From Candidatus Aenigmatarchaeota archaeon (GTDB lineage Archaea > Aenigmatarchaeota > Aenigmatarchaeia > QMZP01 > JAFGSV01), in NCBI GenBank assembly GCA_016934325.1, contig JAFGSV010000010.1:1-44029 (forward strand): DNA of 44,029 bases. The letters are read 5' to 3'. Position 1 is the first letter of the stretch; every line of letters begins with the position of its first letter. Under the pieces are notes generated by a model. It searched no databases and was not told the DNA's origin. It was given only the letters and a program-made list of their open reading frames with translations. Positions 9,186 through 23,020 of this stretch are shown here, piece by piece. Both the position numbers and the translations under genes were made by a program.

Positions 9186-9253
9186 GATCCTCCCATTATC
9201 TCATGAACATGAATGATTCATCATATTTTTGAATCAGTTACTTTTATAACTAT

Positions 9254-9285
9254 GTTCGAATATATAAATGTTATGGTTCGAATAT
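9254..9285 (+). promoter_or_regulatory. Two direct repeats GTTCGAATAT, 22 bp apart, overlapping the Lrp start
   Basis: GTTCGAATAT at 9254-9263 and 9276-9285; TATA-like cttttataac at 9241-9250; ATG at 9273. Confidence 0.5.
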
Positions 9286-9695
9286 CAAACTTAGAATTGC
9301 TGCTCGCCCTGAGGGAGAACTCGCGGACCCCCTTTGTCGGGCTGGCGAAGAGGTTCGGCGTCAGCGAGACCGCCATCAGGAAGAGGGTCAGGAAGCTGGA
9401 GCAGGACGGCGTGATCAAGAAATATACGATAGAAGTTGACACAAGGAAGATAGGATACGACATCGACGCCTTGATCGGGGTCGACACCAGGCCGGAGGAC
9501 TATATGGATGCGCTCGAGAAGATGAGGAAGATGAAGGACGTCAAGTGCATGTGCTCCAGCAGCGGCGATCACATGATCCTGCTCGAGTGCTGGTTCCATG
9601 GCTCAGCGGAGCTGACCATGTTCCTGAAGAAGCTGAAGGGCGTGGATGGGGTGACGAAGATATGCCCGGCCATAAAGACCGAGACGATTAAGTGA
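9273..9695 (+). CDS. Lrp/AsnC family transcriptional regulator
   Basis: HTH 'TPFVGLAKRFGVSETAIRKRVRKLEQDGVIKKYTIEVD' plus RAM-type domain. Confidence 0.9.
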   Translation: MVRISNLELLLALRENSRTPFVGLAKRFGVSETAIRKRVRKLEQDGVIKKYTIEVDTRKIGYDIDALIGVDTRPEDYMDALEKMRKMKDVKCMCSSSGDHMILLECWFHGSAELTMFLKKLKGVDGVTKICPAIKTETIK

Positions 9696-9711: not shown

Positions 9712-10707
9712 TCAATCGCCGCTATTTTCTTTTTCTAGCAGGAACCGGGGGAAGTAGTTCTTCTTGTAGTTTCGGTAAATCGGTATGCTTTCCGTCTTCT
9801 GTATGAGATTCGCGAAGCGCTGGCGTATGTCCATCTCTATGTTCCTCAGTTCCATCTCGTCCCTCGCATGGATGGATACCTCTATGTCCCATTCGCCAAT
9901 GGTCTTGGCTATCCAAGTGATGTTCGGGTGGTTCCTCAGGTAAAGGGTCATTTCGGGATCCAGCTCCGGCGTTATGTTGTGGTACTTGATTATCAGCAAC
10001 GCCGGGATATAGCCCATCCTCCGCGGATCCACCAGCTGGTCGAACCCCAGCAGTATCTTCCTCTCTGTCAGCTTCTTCATCCTGTCTATGACGGTCTTGG
10101 GGGTCAGTGACAGCTTCTCGCCTATCTCGACCGAGCTCTTCCTCCCGTCCATGGACAGCTCGTCCAGTATGGACAGGTCTGTAATATCGACCTCTTCCGG
10201 CTCCCTGTCACCGCCGAAGATCATCTCCGGCTTCGGTCTTGACATGAGGTATTTCATGCCGAATTTCCTGTTTACTATCGTTGTCAGCACCGTGTAGTTC
10301 TCCAGCTGCCTGGGGAAGCTCGCCATAACCCTGCGGAGGTTCTTGTTGAACTGGGAGGGGTTCCTGGCGAAGAACGTGCAGATAAGGTCGTAGGAACCCC
10401 CGCACGCCGCCACCCAGCTGGTGAAGGGGTCCGACACGAGGTAATTCATCAGCTCCTCGTATTTATCCTTGCTGATATAGCTCAGCTTGAAATATACCCT
10501 GAAGTCCAGGACGTTGAGCTTGGAATAGTCGACGATGGCATAGAACCCGTTTATCACCCCCTTCCCGATCAGCGCATTCGCAGTATAGCTCACCTGCTGC
10601 TGGCTCTTCCGTATCCTCCTCCCAAGCTTCGAGAAGGGGACCCTCGCATCAAGCTCGAGGCCGCTCAGGACCCTGTTCTCCACATTTCTAAGCTTTGTCA
10701 GCTCCAT
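9712..10707 (-). CDS. Tandem Lrp/AsnC-type regulator (two HTH-RAM units)
   Basis: First HTH 'VPFSKLGRRIRKSQQQVSYTANALIGKGVI', second 'KSSVEIGEKLSLTPKTVIDRMKKLTERKILLG', each followed by a RAM-like region. Confidence 0.85.
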   Translation of the reverse strand: MELTKLRNVENRVLSGLELDARVPFSKLGRRIRKSQQQVSYTANALIGKGVINGFYAIVDYSKLNVLDFRVYFKLSYISKDKYEELMNYLVSDPFTSWVAACGGSYDLICTFFARNPSQFNKNLRRVMASFPRQLENYTVLTTIVNRKFGMKYLMSRPKPEMIFGGDREPEEVDITDLSILDELSMDGRKSSVEIGEKLSLTPKTVIDRMKKLTERKILLGFDQLVDPRRMGYIPALLIIKYHNITPELDPEMTLYLRNHPNITWIAKTIGEWDIEVSIHARDEMELRNIEMDIRQRFANLIQKTESIPIYRNYKKNYFPRFLLEKENSGD

Positions 10708-10842: not shown

Positions 10843-12411
10843 ATGGAATATCGCACTGGAATCAAGGAGCCGTGGAAGAGGTTCGGGGCAACCGAGGAGG
10901 ATTGGCATAACTGGCGATGGCAGGCGAGGAACTCGTTCACGGACCCCGATCAGCTGTCGGAATTCCTGGGCCTGACCGACCTGCAGGCGAAAATGGTTAG
11001 CGATTCCGTCGACCGCGGGAAGAGGATGAGGATACCGCCCTATGATGCCGCGCTGATGGGGCCAAACCCGACCGGAGTCGACAAGCGGGGCAACTCCATC
11101 TCGAACAGGATCAACGGCGTATTCCTCCAGGGAGTTCCCACCCCCGCGCACCACCTTTTCAAGGCGGGACAGCGCGATCCCATGGCGGAGGGATCCAGAT
11201 CCTATGGAGCCGTCTATCAGAGATATCCCGACAGGGTCGCCCTGTTTGTCAGCAAGAGCGGGGATTGCCATTTCTATTGCATGCACTGCCAGAGGGATAA
11301 GGACATAGTATCAAGCGGACAAGGCCCAAAGGAAATGAATATTGGCCTGGATTACATCAGGGCTAATGAGAACATCAGGGAGGTGCTGGCGACGGGTGGA
11401 GACGCGCTTGTTGGATGCTCCGAGAAGCTTGAGTATGTCCTGAAATCGCTGAGCGAGATAGGCCACATCGAGGCCATCAGGATAGCGACCAGGCTCCCGG
11501 TCACGAACCCTTTTGCGGTCACCGATGAGAAGCTGGGTATCATCGAGAGATACTCCAAGCATACCGGGGGCAGATATGATCTCCCTGAGATAACGATGGT
11601 GACGCATTCGAACTCCCCGGACGAGCACACCCTCGACATGCAGGAAGCCGTCAGCGGGGCAAGGCGCCACGGGCTGACTGTCAGGAACCAGTCGGTCCTG
11701 CTGAAAGGGGTAAACGACGACCTTCCGACGCTGAGCGAGCTTTGCACGAACCTGTATCACATGGGAGCTCAGCCATACTATATATTCCAGTGCCATAAGG
11801 TCGACGGACTGGCTTCGATGATAGTCCCCATCAACGTTGGCCAGTACCTCGTCAATCACTTGCGAGGACAGGAAGGGCTGAGCATACCGAATTACGCCGT
11901 CAACATGACGGGCGGCGGGGGCAAGGTCGTTCTGACGCCGGAGGGTGACAAAGGGGTGCCTGACTTTGGCTATCCGTTGGAAAGGGAGATGTGGACGTGG
12001 GATAGCGACTTGCAGCTGTACGACGAGCTGCTGCACGTCAGGCAAAGAGACTTCGAGATGGCCATGGATGCCATGTCCGCATTCTATGGCGATCCTAAAA
12101 TAAAGGAATATTCATCCTCAGGCGATATACAAGGCATTCAGCTGAGGGAGACGCTTTCTAAGAAATTCAGGCCATCGGTGGTGGTCGTCGAGGATAGCGA
12201 ACCCCGATGCGCCAAGTACGTGACGAACGTTGCGCCTCCAAAGATCCTGACAAAGGAAGAAAAATGCCAGAGTTTTGGCCTGGTCCCGAACGGCAAAGAA
12301 TTCGGGCTGGAGGTGGAATACGTGACAAACCCGTACGCCATTCAGCTGGGCGCCGGACTGTCCGGCACCGATAAACCCGGCCGTTTCCAGCAGGCCTGCT
12401 ACCCCTATTAG
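10843..12411 (+). CDS. KamA-family radical SAM / PLP aminomutase-like protein
   Basis: Radical SAM motif CHFYCMHC; NQSVLLKGVND; YYIFQCHKVDGL; PLP-lysine motif GGGGK. Confidence 0.85.
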   Translation: MEYRTGIKEPWKRFGATEEDWHNWRWQARNSFTDPDQLSEFLGLTDLQAKMVSDSVDRGKRMRIPPYDAALMGPNPTGVDKRGNSISNRINGVFLQGVPTPAHHLFKAGQRDPMAEGSRSYGAVYQRYPDRVALFVSKSGDCHFYCMHCQRDKDIVSSGQGPKEMNIGLDYIRANENIREVLATGGDALVGCSEKLEYVLKSLSEIGHIEAIRIATRLPVTNPFAVTDEKLGIIERYSKHTGGRYDLPEITMVTHSNSPDEHTLDMQEAVSGARRHGLTVRNQSVLLKGVNDDLPTLSELCTNLYHMGAQPYYIFQCHKVDGLASMIVPINVGQYLVNHLRGQEGLSIPNYAVNMTGGGGKVVLTPEGDKGVPDFGYPLEREMWTWDSDLQLYDELLHVRQRDFEMAMDAMSAFYGDPKIKEYSSSGDIQGIQLRETLSKKFRPSVVVVEDSEPRCAKYVTNVAPPKILTKEEKCQSFGLVPNGKEFGLEVEYVTNPYAIQLGAGLSGTDKPGRFQQACYPY

Positions 12412-12427: not shown

Positions 12428-12598
12428 AACACCGAACACGTCCCCGACATTAAGATAACCCGTTGTTTGGTTTTCACCCGGGTATGTGATAGCGGTATCG
12501 AGCCGCTCATCTATTCTGAATGGCCGCATTTGCGGCTCCCTTGGCTCCGGCCTGCGCTTTGAACAACCTTTAAAAAGGTGAACGTCATATTATTATTC

Positions 12599-12646
12599 AT
12601 GAGAACCTCCAGCATGCACAAGACCAAGAAGACAATGGGCTATTGA
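12599..12646 (+). CDS. Putative leader peptide MRTSSMHKTKKTMGY upstream of aspartokinase
   Basis: TATA-like cctttaaaaa (about 12567-12576) places the TSS near the ATG; 15 codons rich in Thr, Lys and Met. Confidence 0.4.
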   Translation: MRTSSMHKTKKTMGY

Positions 12647-12663
12647 TAGCCATCGGTCTGTGC

Positions 12664-12730
12664 GCTGGGGATGAACGCCTCCTTCTTTCGTTCTTTTGGT
12701 TTTCCTCCCCAGCCACGGCTGCGGTTCATC
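12664..12730 (+). promoter_or_regulatory. Mutually exclusive hairpins with U-rich tract in the lysC leader
   Basis: GCTGGGGA (12664-12671)/TCCCCAGC (12706-12713); GATGAAC (12670-12676)/GTTCATC (12724-12730); T-rich stretch 12679-12708. Confidence 0.4.
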
Positions 12731-12746
12731 TCTGCAGGGTGAGGAC

Positions 12747-14120
12747 ATGACGCTGGTGATGAAGTTCGGGGGCACGAGCCTCGGGGACGGGAGGAAGATC
12801 AAGGCAGCCTCGGCCCTCGTCAAGGCCGCCGCGAAAGATGACCGGGTCGTGGTCGTGGTCTCGGCGATGGCCGGGATTACGGATTCGCTGCTCGGCGCGG
12901 CCGGGTCCGCATACGTGTCTAGCGAGAGGGATATAGAATCATTCGTGGAATCGATAAGTAAGAGGCACAAGGAAGCCATTGCCATCGCGATCAGGAAGGA
13001 AAGGAAGAAAGTTCGGCGGGCTATAGATGCCAGGGCGGATGAGCTGAGGGAGGCCCTGCTTGGCGTGCACACGAGCGGTCTGACAGAGCAGGGGAGGGAC
13101 AGGATTTCGGCTTTCGGCGAGAAGATGTCTGCGGCCGTCATGTCCGGAGCCATCTCGGAATTCTCTAAATCGGAATGGCATCACGGGGATGACGGGCTCA
13201 TCCTGACGGACGAGAACTTCGTCAATGCGGAGCCCGACATGCAAAAGACCTGCGCGCAAGTCAGGAAGAGGATATCGCCCCAGCTCCGGCATGGTATTAT
13301 CCCGGTCGTAACCGGCTTCATGGGTTGCACCCCCGACGGACACACGACGACCCTCGGCAGGGGGAGCTCTGACCACATAGCTTCCATACTTGGGGCGTGC
13401 CTCGGTGCCAGGGAGGTCCAGATATGGACCGATGTCGACGGGCTGCTGACGGCCGATCCTAGGATCGTCGGGGGCAGCCGGCTCATAGGGACGGTCTCTT
13501 TCAGGGAGGCAGGAGAGCTGGCATACTTCGGGGCGAAGGTAGTACATCCAAAGACCATGCTGCCGGCCGTCAGGAAGGGAATCCCCATAAGGATACTTAA
13601 CACATTCAACCCTGGCAGCATGGGGACCGAGATTAAAGGCAGGGGCGAGAGGCATGACGGGGTGGTCAAGGCGATCACCAGCAAGAAAGGCATCACGCTG
13701 ATCGATATAGTATCGACCAGGATGCTGGCTGCCCACGGATTCCTGGCCGAGCTCTTCGGCATATTCGGCAGGCACGGAATGAGCATAGACCTGATCTCGA
13801 CGACGGAGGTGTCCGTTTCCGTGACGATAGACGAGAATGTGAACGGCAGGTTGAAGCCGGTCGTCGAGGACCTTGAGAGGATAGCCAGCGTGAAGGTCTG
13901 CAAGGACAGGGCCATGGTCTGCGTCGTCGGGGAGGGGATGAGAGAAGCCCCAGGCACCGCGGGCAGGGTCTTCTCCAGGCTTGGCAGGGACAGGGTGAAC
14001 GTAGAATGCATATCGCAGGGAGCGAGCGAGATAAGCATATGCATGGTGGTGAAAGAGGGGGAAGCGGACCATGCGGTCAGGATACTGCATGACGAGTTCT
14101 TCCCGGGGGATGGCGGATGA
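12747..14120 (+). CDS. lysC: Aspartate kinase
   Basis: VMKFGGTSLGDG; GRGSSDHIAS; TDVDGLLTADPRIV; C-terminal ACT-like regions; start reset from 12696 to ATG 12747 behind GGGTGAGG. Confidence 0.92.
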   Translation: MTLVMKFGGTSLGDGRKIKAASALVKAAAKDDRVVVVVSAMAGITDSLLGAAGSAYVSSERDIESFVESISKRHKEAIAIAIRKERKKVRRAIDARADELREALLGVHTSGLTEQGRDRISAFGEKMSAAVMSGAISEFSKSEWHHGDDGLILTDENFVNAEPDMQKTCAQVRKRISPQLRHGIIPVVTGFMGCTPDGHTTTLGRGSSDHIASILGACLGAREVQIWTDVDGLLTADPRIVGGSRLIGTVSFREAGELAYFGAKVVHPKTMLPAVRKGIPIRILNTFNPGSMGTEIKGRGERHDGVVKAITSKKGITLIDIVSTRMLAAHGFLAELFGIFGRHGMSIDLISTTEVSVSVTIDENVNGRLKPVVEDLERIASVKVCKDRAMVCVVGEGMREAPGTAGRVFSRLGRDRVNVECISQGASEISICMVVKEGEADHAVRILHDEFFPGDGG

Positions 14121-14668
14121 GCGGGGCAATGAGGATATTCATGACGGCCGAGACTATGGTCTTCTTCGCAGGGGGGTTGCTGGGCCCTCTTTATGCGGTT
14201 TTCGTCGAGGATATCGGAGGGGATGTGCTCACCGTCGGGGCATCCTGGTCCCTTTTCATGCTCCTTTCGGGCATCGGACTGCTGATTAGCGGCAGATTAG
14301 TGGACAGGATGAGGAGCGAGAAGCCAGTTATAATGGCTGCCCATCTGCTGCATGCCTTAGGATTTCTCGGGTACCTGCTGGTCTCTTCCCCCGTGCACCT
14401 TTTCGCCGTGCAGGTTCTGCTGGGCATCGCAACCGCAATAAGCTACCCTTCGAGGGAGTCATGGTTCACGCGTTTCATTGACAATGATAAGATAGCTTTC
14501 CAGTGGGCCACTTGGGAGGCGACATACTCCATAACGGTCGCCGCGGCTTCGATAATAGGGGCGCTAGTAGTTAGCGTGCTCGGCTTCTCCGCGCTCTTCG
14601 TCTCGATGTCCGCATTGGCCTTCGCCGGACTCATCGTTTCCGCTTTCATACCGGAGGGAAGGAGATGA
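14117..14668 (+). CDS. Half-size MFS-like membrane protein (about 6 TM)
   Basis: MFS motif A-like 'GRLVDRMRSEKPV'; ATGA overlap with lysC and ATGA overlap with asd. Confidence 0.75.
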   Translation: MSGAMRIFMTAETMVFFAGGLLGPLYAVFVEDIGGDVLTVGASWSLFMLLSGIGLLISGRLVDRMRSEKPVIMAAHLLHALGFLGYLLVSSPVHLFAVQVLLGIATAISYPSRESWFTRFIDNDKIAFQWATWEATYSITVAAASIIGALVVSVLGFSALFVSMSALAFAGLIVSAFIPEGRR

Positions 14669-15723
14669 GGAAGGTAAAGGTAGGCGTCTTGGGCGCGACC
14701 GGCATGGTCGGGCAGAGGTTCATGCAGCTGCTTGCCGGGCACCCCTGGTTCGAGGTGACGGAGCTTGCCGCTTCCGAGAGGAGCGCCGGGAAGCCCTATG
14801 AGGAGGCGGTCGGCGACAGGTGGAAGATAGGAGGCGAGATACCGGATTTCGCCAGGGGGAAGATCGTAAAGGAATGCAAGCCAGGGCTGGACTGCGACCT
14901 CGTGTTCTCGGCGCTCGATTCCAGCGTCGCGGGCCTCATCGAGGAGGAGCTGGCCATGGCAGGCTATCCGGTATGCTCCAACAGCAGGAACCACAGGATG
15001 GACCCCGACGTCCCCCTGCTCGTTCCGGAGATTAACCACGACCACCTCGAGGCCATAAAGGGACAGAAGTTAGGAGACGGGTTCATCGTGACGAACCCCA
15101 ACTGCTCGACAATAGGCCTCGTCATACCGCTCAAGCCGCTGCTTGACAGCTTCGGCTTGAAGAGGGTATTCGTGACCACGATGCAGGCCCTCAGCGGAGC
15201 GGGCTTCAAGGGATTCGACCTGGACATCCAGGACAACGTCCTGCCTTACATCGGCGGCGAGGAGGAGAAGATGGAGATGGAGCCTTTGAAGATATTGGGC
15301 AGGTTCGAGAAGGGCAGGTTCTTGGATGCGGGATTGGGCATCAGCGCCCAGTGCAACAGGGTGAACGTGCAAAACGGCCACCTCGAGACAGTGAACGTGG
15401 AGCTGGGGAGCAAGGCCGGCCTCGACGACGTTATCAGCTCGTTAAAGGGATTCAATCCATTGGAGGGTTTCGGTTTGCCGAGCGCCCCGAACCCACCGAT
15501 AATCGTGAAGGAAGAGGATGACAGGCCCCAGCCCAAGTACGACAGGGATGCCGGGGAAGGAATCTCGGAGCTTGCGCGCGGGATGGCCGTGACGGTTGGC
15601 AGGGTCAGGGAATGCCGCATCCTTGATTACAAGTTCGTGCTCCTGAGTCACAACACCATAAGGGGAGCGGCGGGAGCGAGCATCCTGAACGCTGAGCTGA
15701 TGCTGAAAAAGGGCATGATATAA
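14665..15723 (+). CDS. asd: Aspartate-semialdehyde dehydrogenase
   Basis: VGVLGATGMVGQRFMQLL; IVTNPNCSTIGLV; QALSGAGF. Confidence 0.93.
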   Translation: MRKVKVGVLGATGMVGQRFMQLLAGHPWFEVTELAASERSAGKPYEEAVGDRWKIGGEIPDFARGKIVKECKPGLDCDLVFSALDSSVAGLIEEELAMAGYPVCSNSRNHRMDPDVPLLVPEINHDHLEAIKGQKLGDGFIVTNPNCSTIGLVIPLKPLLDSFGLKRVFVTTMQALSGAGFKGFDLDIQDNVLPYIGGEEEKMEMEPLKILGRFEKGRFLDAGLGISAQCNRVNVQNGHLETVNVELGSKAGLDDVISSLKGFNPLEGFGLPSAPNPPIIVKEEDDRPQPKYDRDAGEGISELARGMAVTVGRVRECRILDYKFVLLSHNTIRGAAGASILNAELMLKKGMI

Positions 15724-22930: not shown

Positions 22931-23020
22931 GGGCCGGTAGATCAATGGCAGATCGCCGCCCTCGCAACAATTAATTTGCGAGAACGGCGGAGGCTGAGGG
23001 TTCAAATCCCTCCCGGTCCA
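22931..23020 (+). tRNA. tRNA-Ala(CGC) with an 18-nt intron at 37/38 (intron 22967-22984)
   Basis: Acceptor GGGCCGG/CCGGTCC with G3:U70; D-stem GATC/GATC; anticodon stem CCGCC/GGCGG; T-arm GAGGG-TTCAAAT-CCCTC; removing ACAATTAATTTGCGAGAA leaves loop CTCGCAC. Confidence 0.93.

Follow-up and report, generated by a model that had tools for sequence, protein, structure and literature searches.

The aspartokinase gene lysC, in the 44,029-nucleotide stretch of archaeal DNA analysed here (the window), is preceded at 12599-12746 by a leader ORF and associated RNA elements, which are real and form one member of a family. As judged from sequence comparison, this region probably acts as a ribosome-mediated attenuator sensing charged threonyl- and lysyl-tRNA. 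In total, 15 leaders were found in 14 genomes, six before lysC or asd (aspartate-semialdehyde dehydrogenase) and nine before thrS (threonyl-tRNA synthetase), and the genome of the window (G000) has both kinds. No leader was found before any other gene (15/15), and each locus combines the ORF, a leaderless promoter, a residue bias matched to the gene behind it and two RNA pairings.

The promoter and the coding elements of the window's leader are the following:

12569..12576, forward strand: TATA element of the promoter driving the leader (TTTAAAAA), 30 nt 5' of the leader ATG, fitting the genome's TATA peak
12599..12646, forward strand: leader ORF MRTSSMHKTKKTMGY with its stop codon, probably leaderless, as judged from its own sequence and its homologues
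12620..12637, forward strand: candidate sensor codons AAG ACC AAG AAG ACA ATG (Lys-Thr-Lys-Lys-Thr-Met)

The initial annotation had proposed that a TATA-like element sets a leaderless start at this ATG, and the motif TTTAAA, 30 nt upstream, agrees with this. When counted over the whole genome (1.23 of the 1.24 Mb of G000, with genes called by a home-made hexamer model), TATA-like motifs peaked at -31..-27 from start codons. This peak indicates that leaderless mRNAs are common in G000 and that the leader ATG is placed where a leaderless transcript would begin. A TATA element occupied the same interval, -31..-27, in 15/15 leaders.

Lys, Thr and Met are end products of the aspartate pathway. The earlier count of nine such residues among the 15 of MRTSSMHKTKKTMGY was correct, the start Met being included (8/14 without it), and {K,M,T} was the most over-represented of 1140 amino-acid triples when the lysC leader peptides of G000 and its relative G004 were taken jointly (10^-8.8, against 10^-6.5 for the runner-up). 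Since a few other T/K/M-rich chance ORFs are present in G000, composition alone is weak evidence. A T/M-rich ORF upstream of C4:4641 was rejected as a leader, as it has no TATA element and its neighbour is an unrelated membrane gene. Many of the lysC/asd leaders have a Met triplet around codon 6, and Lys and Met may perhaps not all be sensed by them.

Only one close LysC was found (63% identity), in G004, which belongs to the same family and another genus. Its upstream region has the layout of the window: TATA, ATG, MSMPTVMMTKKTKLML with its stop codon, GCTGGGG...CCCCAGC and lysC. A covariance model built from the G000 and G004 leaders (R1) was run over 156 genomes of the class, which are mostly below 1.3 Mb. 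The matches were weak yet stood directly before relevant genes in other families of the order:

G040: MSSCAMTATKKK with stop codon, before asd-lysC
G013: MHSATMTTKKTGKSY with stop codon, before lysC
G006: MMSQGMTTKKTKTFY with stop codon, before asd
G008: MNSGFTTTTTTKLA with stop codon, before thrS

In G040, G013 and G006, thrS lies downstream of the leader on the same strand. A second model (R2) was made from six sequences, which themselves scored 1e-12 to 1e-16, and it matched two further leaders:

G026: MHYSGKTMVLKTKTLC with stop codon, before asd
G024: MNSGFTTTTTTSR with stop codon, before thrS

The thrS upstream regions of the order yielded the leaders MNSGRTTTTTTFC, MNSVTTATTGSKTTTTGTTTSL, MFTSTTTTGTTGSC, MYSGKTTTTTITTTTTC and MNYPITTTR. 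Two thrS leaders lie at some distance from their gene:

G018: MFISTTTTGTQTTSC, 539 nt upstream of thrS
G000, C19:51723 to about 51560, minus strand (locus L220): MSPFDATTRNTQTITTA with stop codon, 273 nt upstream of thrS

At L220, GCGGGGA and TTCCCGC are separated by long T runs. A broader sequence-only model (R3) gave no additional members, L349 being coding. The remaining R1 and R2 matches that were inspected, among them L168, L169, L172-L175, L177-L179, L185-L196, L199-L201, L203 and L204, were rejected because they look coding or due to chance and none places a leader ahead of a gene of interest.

Within the order, seven genomes have asd or an operon of this kind that includes LysC, and six of them carry a leader, as do 9 of about 36 thrS regions. 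No leader was found in 56 thrS upstream regions of two other orders, at the other LysC loci of the class, at 56 bacterial (mainly Chloroflexi) LysC loci, or before lysC on the dapA-dapB-lysC-asd contig of G039. Conservation upstream of related lysC genes, which the initial annotation had put forward as the check to make, was observed: a Thr/Lys-rich leaderless ORF and a helix of the GCTGGGG/CCCCAGC type are kept, with compensating changes, and in the relatives they stand before lysC, asd or thrS.

The residue content of the peptides differed between the two kinds of locus. At least three Lys plus Thr were present in 6/6 lysC/asd leaders, whereas 9/9 thrS leaders had at most one Lys, with Thr either in runs (such as MNSGFTTTTTTKLA) or in clusters. 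Lys content thus separates the six from the nine with zero exceptions, for which the chance is 1/5005 if the loci are independent. The peptide sequence is not conserved among the leaders, only its Thr/Lys content. On this comparison, the leader residues match what the gene behind them does. Furthermore, in an unbiased scan of G000, the thrS leader ranked first of 280 leaderless short ORFs for single-residue enrichment; a scan of the same genome for leaders of other amino acids gave none that was convincing.

The RNA elements of the window's leader region are listed below:

12607..12613, forward strand: segment 1a (CTCCAGC), running from the end of codon 3 through codon 5, partner of segment 3 in the early transcript
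12616..12625, forward strand: segment 1b (GCACAAGACC), partner of segment 2, with covarying pairs
12655..12663, forward strand: segment 2 (GGTCTGTGC), partner of segment 1b
12664..12671, forward strand: segment 3 (GCTGGGGA; core GCTGGGG), common to two exclusive helices
12679..12705, forward strand: U-rich tract within the loop that separates segment 3 from segment 4, a candidate site of termination
12706..12713, forward strand: segment 4 (TCCCCAGC; core CCCCAGC), partner of segment 3
12724..12730, forward strand: GTTCATC, 3' arm of a non-conserved helix, partner of GATGAAC at 12670-12676
12737..12745, forward strand: lysC Shine-Dalgarno region GGGTGAGGA, GGTGAGG-like, before the lysC ATG at 12747

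Two crossing helices had been described here, of which GCTGGGG/CCCCAGC was kept, while GATGAAC/GTTCATC is present in the window but not conserved in the relatives. The latter was rejected as the competitor helix: it is absent from G004, and the conserved competitor is the helix that GCTGGGG forms with codons 3-5 of the leader. Its GTTCATC arm is also able to pair with early lysC codons in G000 and G004, so that GATGAAC/GTTCATC is probably incidental. The order of a U-rich tract followed by the lysC ribosome-binding site was recovered as described, with the tract at 12679-12705 and GGTGAGG before the ATG at 12747.

In the early transcript of both G000 and G004, one long hairpin is formed in which leader codons are paired with the region after the stop codon (z = -3.5 in the window and -3.6 in G004). 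In 15/15 loci, segment 3 pairs with the first leader codons (1a) in the early RNA, and masking the leader leaves it paired with segment 4 in 15/15. With shuffled arms the means were 7.5/15 for 1a:3 and 9.1/15 for 3:4, with maxima of 12 and 13 in 100 rounds, the segment-3 cores of this test having been chosen with the model in mind. Segment 3 itself varies, being GCTGGGG in the window and GCCGGGGA, ACTGGGGT, TGGCCGG, GCGGGGA and others elsewhere. Pairings within a locus exceeded those between loci (1a:3, P=0.003; 3:4, P=0.00035), and a shuffle test of one segment with both partners gave a combined P=2e-7; these P values are optimistic, since the loci share ancestry and are less independent than the tests assume. 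In a sequence-based alignment of six leaders, 5/16 hairpin pairs showed two-sided changes. The covariation score of this six-leader hairpin was reached by 0/500 shuffles, and its consensus had 82% paired cells versus 23-48% for slid partners. Among the candidates listed in the leaderless-ORF scan of G000, the lysC leader had the strongest 3:4 helix. Two mutually exclusive folds, one of which uses bases of the ORF, characterize ribosome-mediated attenuators, and such a pair of folds is present here. A T-rich loop separates segments 3 and 4 in all 15 loci (33-89% T), and the U-rich tracts are short or broken in several of them. Minimum-energy folds of the full-length RNA favoured 3:4 in most loci, so that the off state would have to be kinetic.

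Behind the leader, three genes with overlapping ends follow:

12747..14120, forward strand: lysC, aspartokinase (PF00696 and ACT domains)
14117..14668, forward strand: half-size MFS protein, operon gene 2 (PF07690)
14665..15723, forward strand: asd, aspartate-semialdehyde dehydrogenase, operon gene 3 (PF01118, PF02774)

The half-size MFS protein (183 aa in the window) is encoded between lysC and asd in both genomes, at 14117-14668 of the window and at 2870-3424 of L002 in G004; it is possibly an amino-acid exporter or importer. Outside its own family, the closest relatives of this LysC are from Chloroflexi, at about 40% identity (GTDB scan), and lysC may be a transferred gene behind an archaeal leader. 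A full-length aCPSF1/FttA, above the NCBIfam cut-off, is encoded in G000, which argues that the genome is archaeal.

We infer that the leader is translated, that the ribosome stalls on it and that the switch works in the direction described here. Transcription would begin at the leader ATG or immediately beside it, and ribosomes would translate the leaderless ORF at once. When Thr and Lys are ample, the ribosome would complete the leader and depart, and the long hairpin would form with 1a:3 as its outer and 1b:2 as its inner part. The 1a:3 hairpin would leave the U-rich tract behind it exposed, and expression would be cut short; this stop state is most likely termination at or after the tract, either intrinsic or assisted by FttA/aCPSF1. 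That 1a:3 with an exposed tract would be the stop state is suggested by the T-rich stretch that always lies shortly after the 1a:3 hairpin. When Thr or Lys is short, the ribosome would stall at codons 8-12 and cover 1a and/or 1b; 1a would be covered because it is part of the opening codons, which precede most of the Thr and Lys codons. Segment 3 would thereby be freed to pair with segment 4, the U-rich tract would be enclosed in the loop, and RNA polymerase would continue into lysC-MFS-asd. The initial annotation had suggested that the position of the ribosome decides between termination and lysC readthrough: a leader-peptide switch is supported by the relatives, and the competitor helix had to be corrected to 1a:3.

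That the leaders are functional leader-peptide switches we regard as probable. We lean, with less assurance, towards transcription termination as the output, the U-rich tract being the likelier site of control. The same sensor might instead act on translation, a rather unlikely reading in which segment 4 and the bases preceding it would mask the lysC ribosome-binding site unless segment 3 captures segment 4. Such masking would be feasible in the window, where TCCTCCCC at 12703-12710 is able to pair with the Shine-Dalgarno sequence GGG-T-GAGGA at 12737-12745 in a state only 2 kcal/mol over the minimum, and also in G004, where CTTCTCCC can pair with GG-T-GAGAAG with one compensated pair. However, the thrS members show no evident pairing of segment 4 with the ribosome site, and masking leaves the conserved T-rich loop unexplained. 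In addition, the two thrS leaders that begin 273 and 539 nt from their gene are too far away for simple masking of its ribosome site, which supports a transcriptional effect. The short T runs of some members, and an arrangement of parts unlike a bacterial terminator, count against termination. The pairing of segment 4 with the ribosome site is a possible second, translational layer at the lysC of G000 and G004. Translational attenuators of the ermC/cat type likewise rely on a stalled ribosome, which melts a hairpin and so releases the gene behind it; in the archaeal leaders, ribosome-site masking is possible at lysC (G000, G004) and is absent or too distant at thrS.

A peptide acting in trans, or an RNA that binds a ligand or tRNA directly (riboswitch, T-box-like) with an incidental ORF, is very improbable. 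Some conservation at the RNA level outside coding would fit it, namely TAG/TTAG even off the stop codon, and GGTCT. On the other hand, only the Thr/Lys content of the peptide is conserved, and it tracks the regulated gene. An Rfam search of the window gave tRNA only, with no match to the leader, lysine riboswitch and T-box included. T-box and lysine (L-box) riboswitches resemble the proposed switch in sensing tRNA charging or lysine before bacterial thrS or lysC, but those RNAs are independent of a translated leader. A chance ORF with chance hairpins is scarcely credible: similar T/K/M chance ORFs do occur in the genome (such as the C4 example, which lacks a TATA element and precedes an unrelated gene), but 15 loci in 14 genomes share promoter position, matched residues and covarying helices, against 0/56 thrS regions of other orders and 0/56 mainly Chloroflexi lysC loci.

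Leader-peptide attenuation is a textbook bacterial mechanism. The bacterial thr, his, trp, ilv and pheST attenuators share with the ribosome-mediated switch proposed here a short ORF in which codons for the regulated amino acid abound, mutually exclusive helices of which one arm falls within that ORF, and a site before biosynthetic or aminoacyl-tRNA synthetase genes. The proposed switch differs from them in several respects: the host is archaeal, with a TATA promoter and leaderless start in place of the bacterial start signals and ribosome-binding site; the U-rich tract lies inside the 3-4 loop, several nt past the 1a:3 hairpin; and the archaeal family places Thr+Lys leaders before lysC/asd and Thr-run leaders before thrS. 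No terminator hairpin with a U run immediately behind it was found before the first gene, nor in general was a U run found after segment 4. By mechanism the leaders resemble bacterial leader-peptide attenuation, and by anatomy they are a variant of it (leaderless start, U-rich tract in the 3-4 loop).

Control by aCPSF1/FttA in Saccharolobus is also archaeal, post-initiation and promoter-proximal, but it is global and works without a leader peptide or U-stretch bias (PMC8448881). The same 2021 paper stated that no transcription attenuation was known in archaea (PMC8448881), and a 2021 review of archaeal coupling left attenuation unmentioned and treated competition between the ribosome and aCPSF1 as a hypothesis (PMC8116511). 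A search of the open-access literature gave no case of archaeal leader-peptide attenuation. The sequence comparisons point to a bacterial-style amino-acid sensor not previously known from archaea. We tentatively favour an archaeal family of leader-peptide transcription attenuators at aspartate-pathway genes and thrS, possibly acting via FttA/aCPSF1. If such a family is conserved across an archaeal order, archaea too would be shown to sense amino acids through coupled translation, and a separately built switch would be at hand for comparison with the bacterial one. With the leaders, nature would also provide an assay for the response of archaeal RNA polymerase and FttA/aCPSF1 to ribosome stalling. 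Such elements can moreover be located in unannotated archaeal genomes from residue bias together with a leaderless start.

Several minor observations were made in the window and the relatives. Every aligned leader retains a TAG triplet, nearly always as TTAG (alignments A4 and A6; window 12644-12650), including those in which another triplet is the stop (TGATAG in G000; G040); this hints at a role of the RNA itself around the end of the leader. The 522-aa protein at 10843-12411 resembles radical SAM enzymes of the lysine 2,3-aminomutase family, but had no Pfam match at 1e-3. Divergently placed AsnC/Lrp-type regulators are encoded at 9252-9695 and 9712-10707. A 90-nt tRNA at 22931-23020, matched by Rfam and missed by ARAGORN with the bacterial code, perhaps contains an intron. 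Finally, the thrS leaders of family f4 (L216, L223, L230, L244) have the box CCAGCCGTGAGTTTAATTAA, or one close to it, after segment 4. In G014 (L229) a box of the CCAGCCGTGAGTTTAATTAA type is kept and the leader is lost, a natural deletion; the box may serve as an additional promoter or mark a site of processing.
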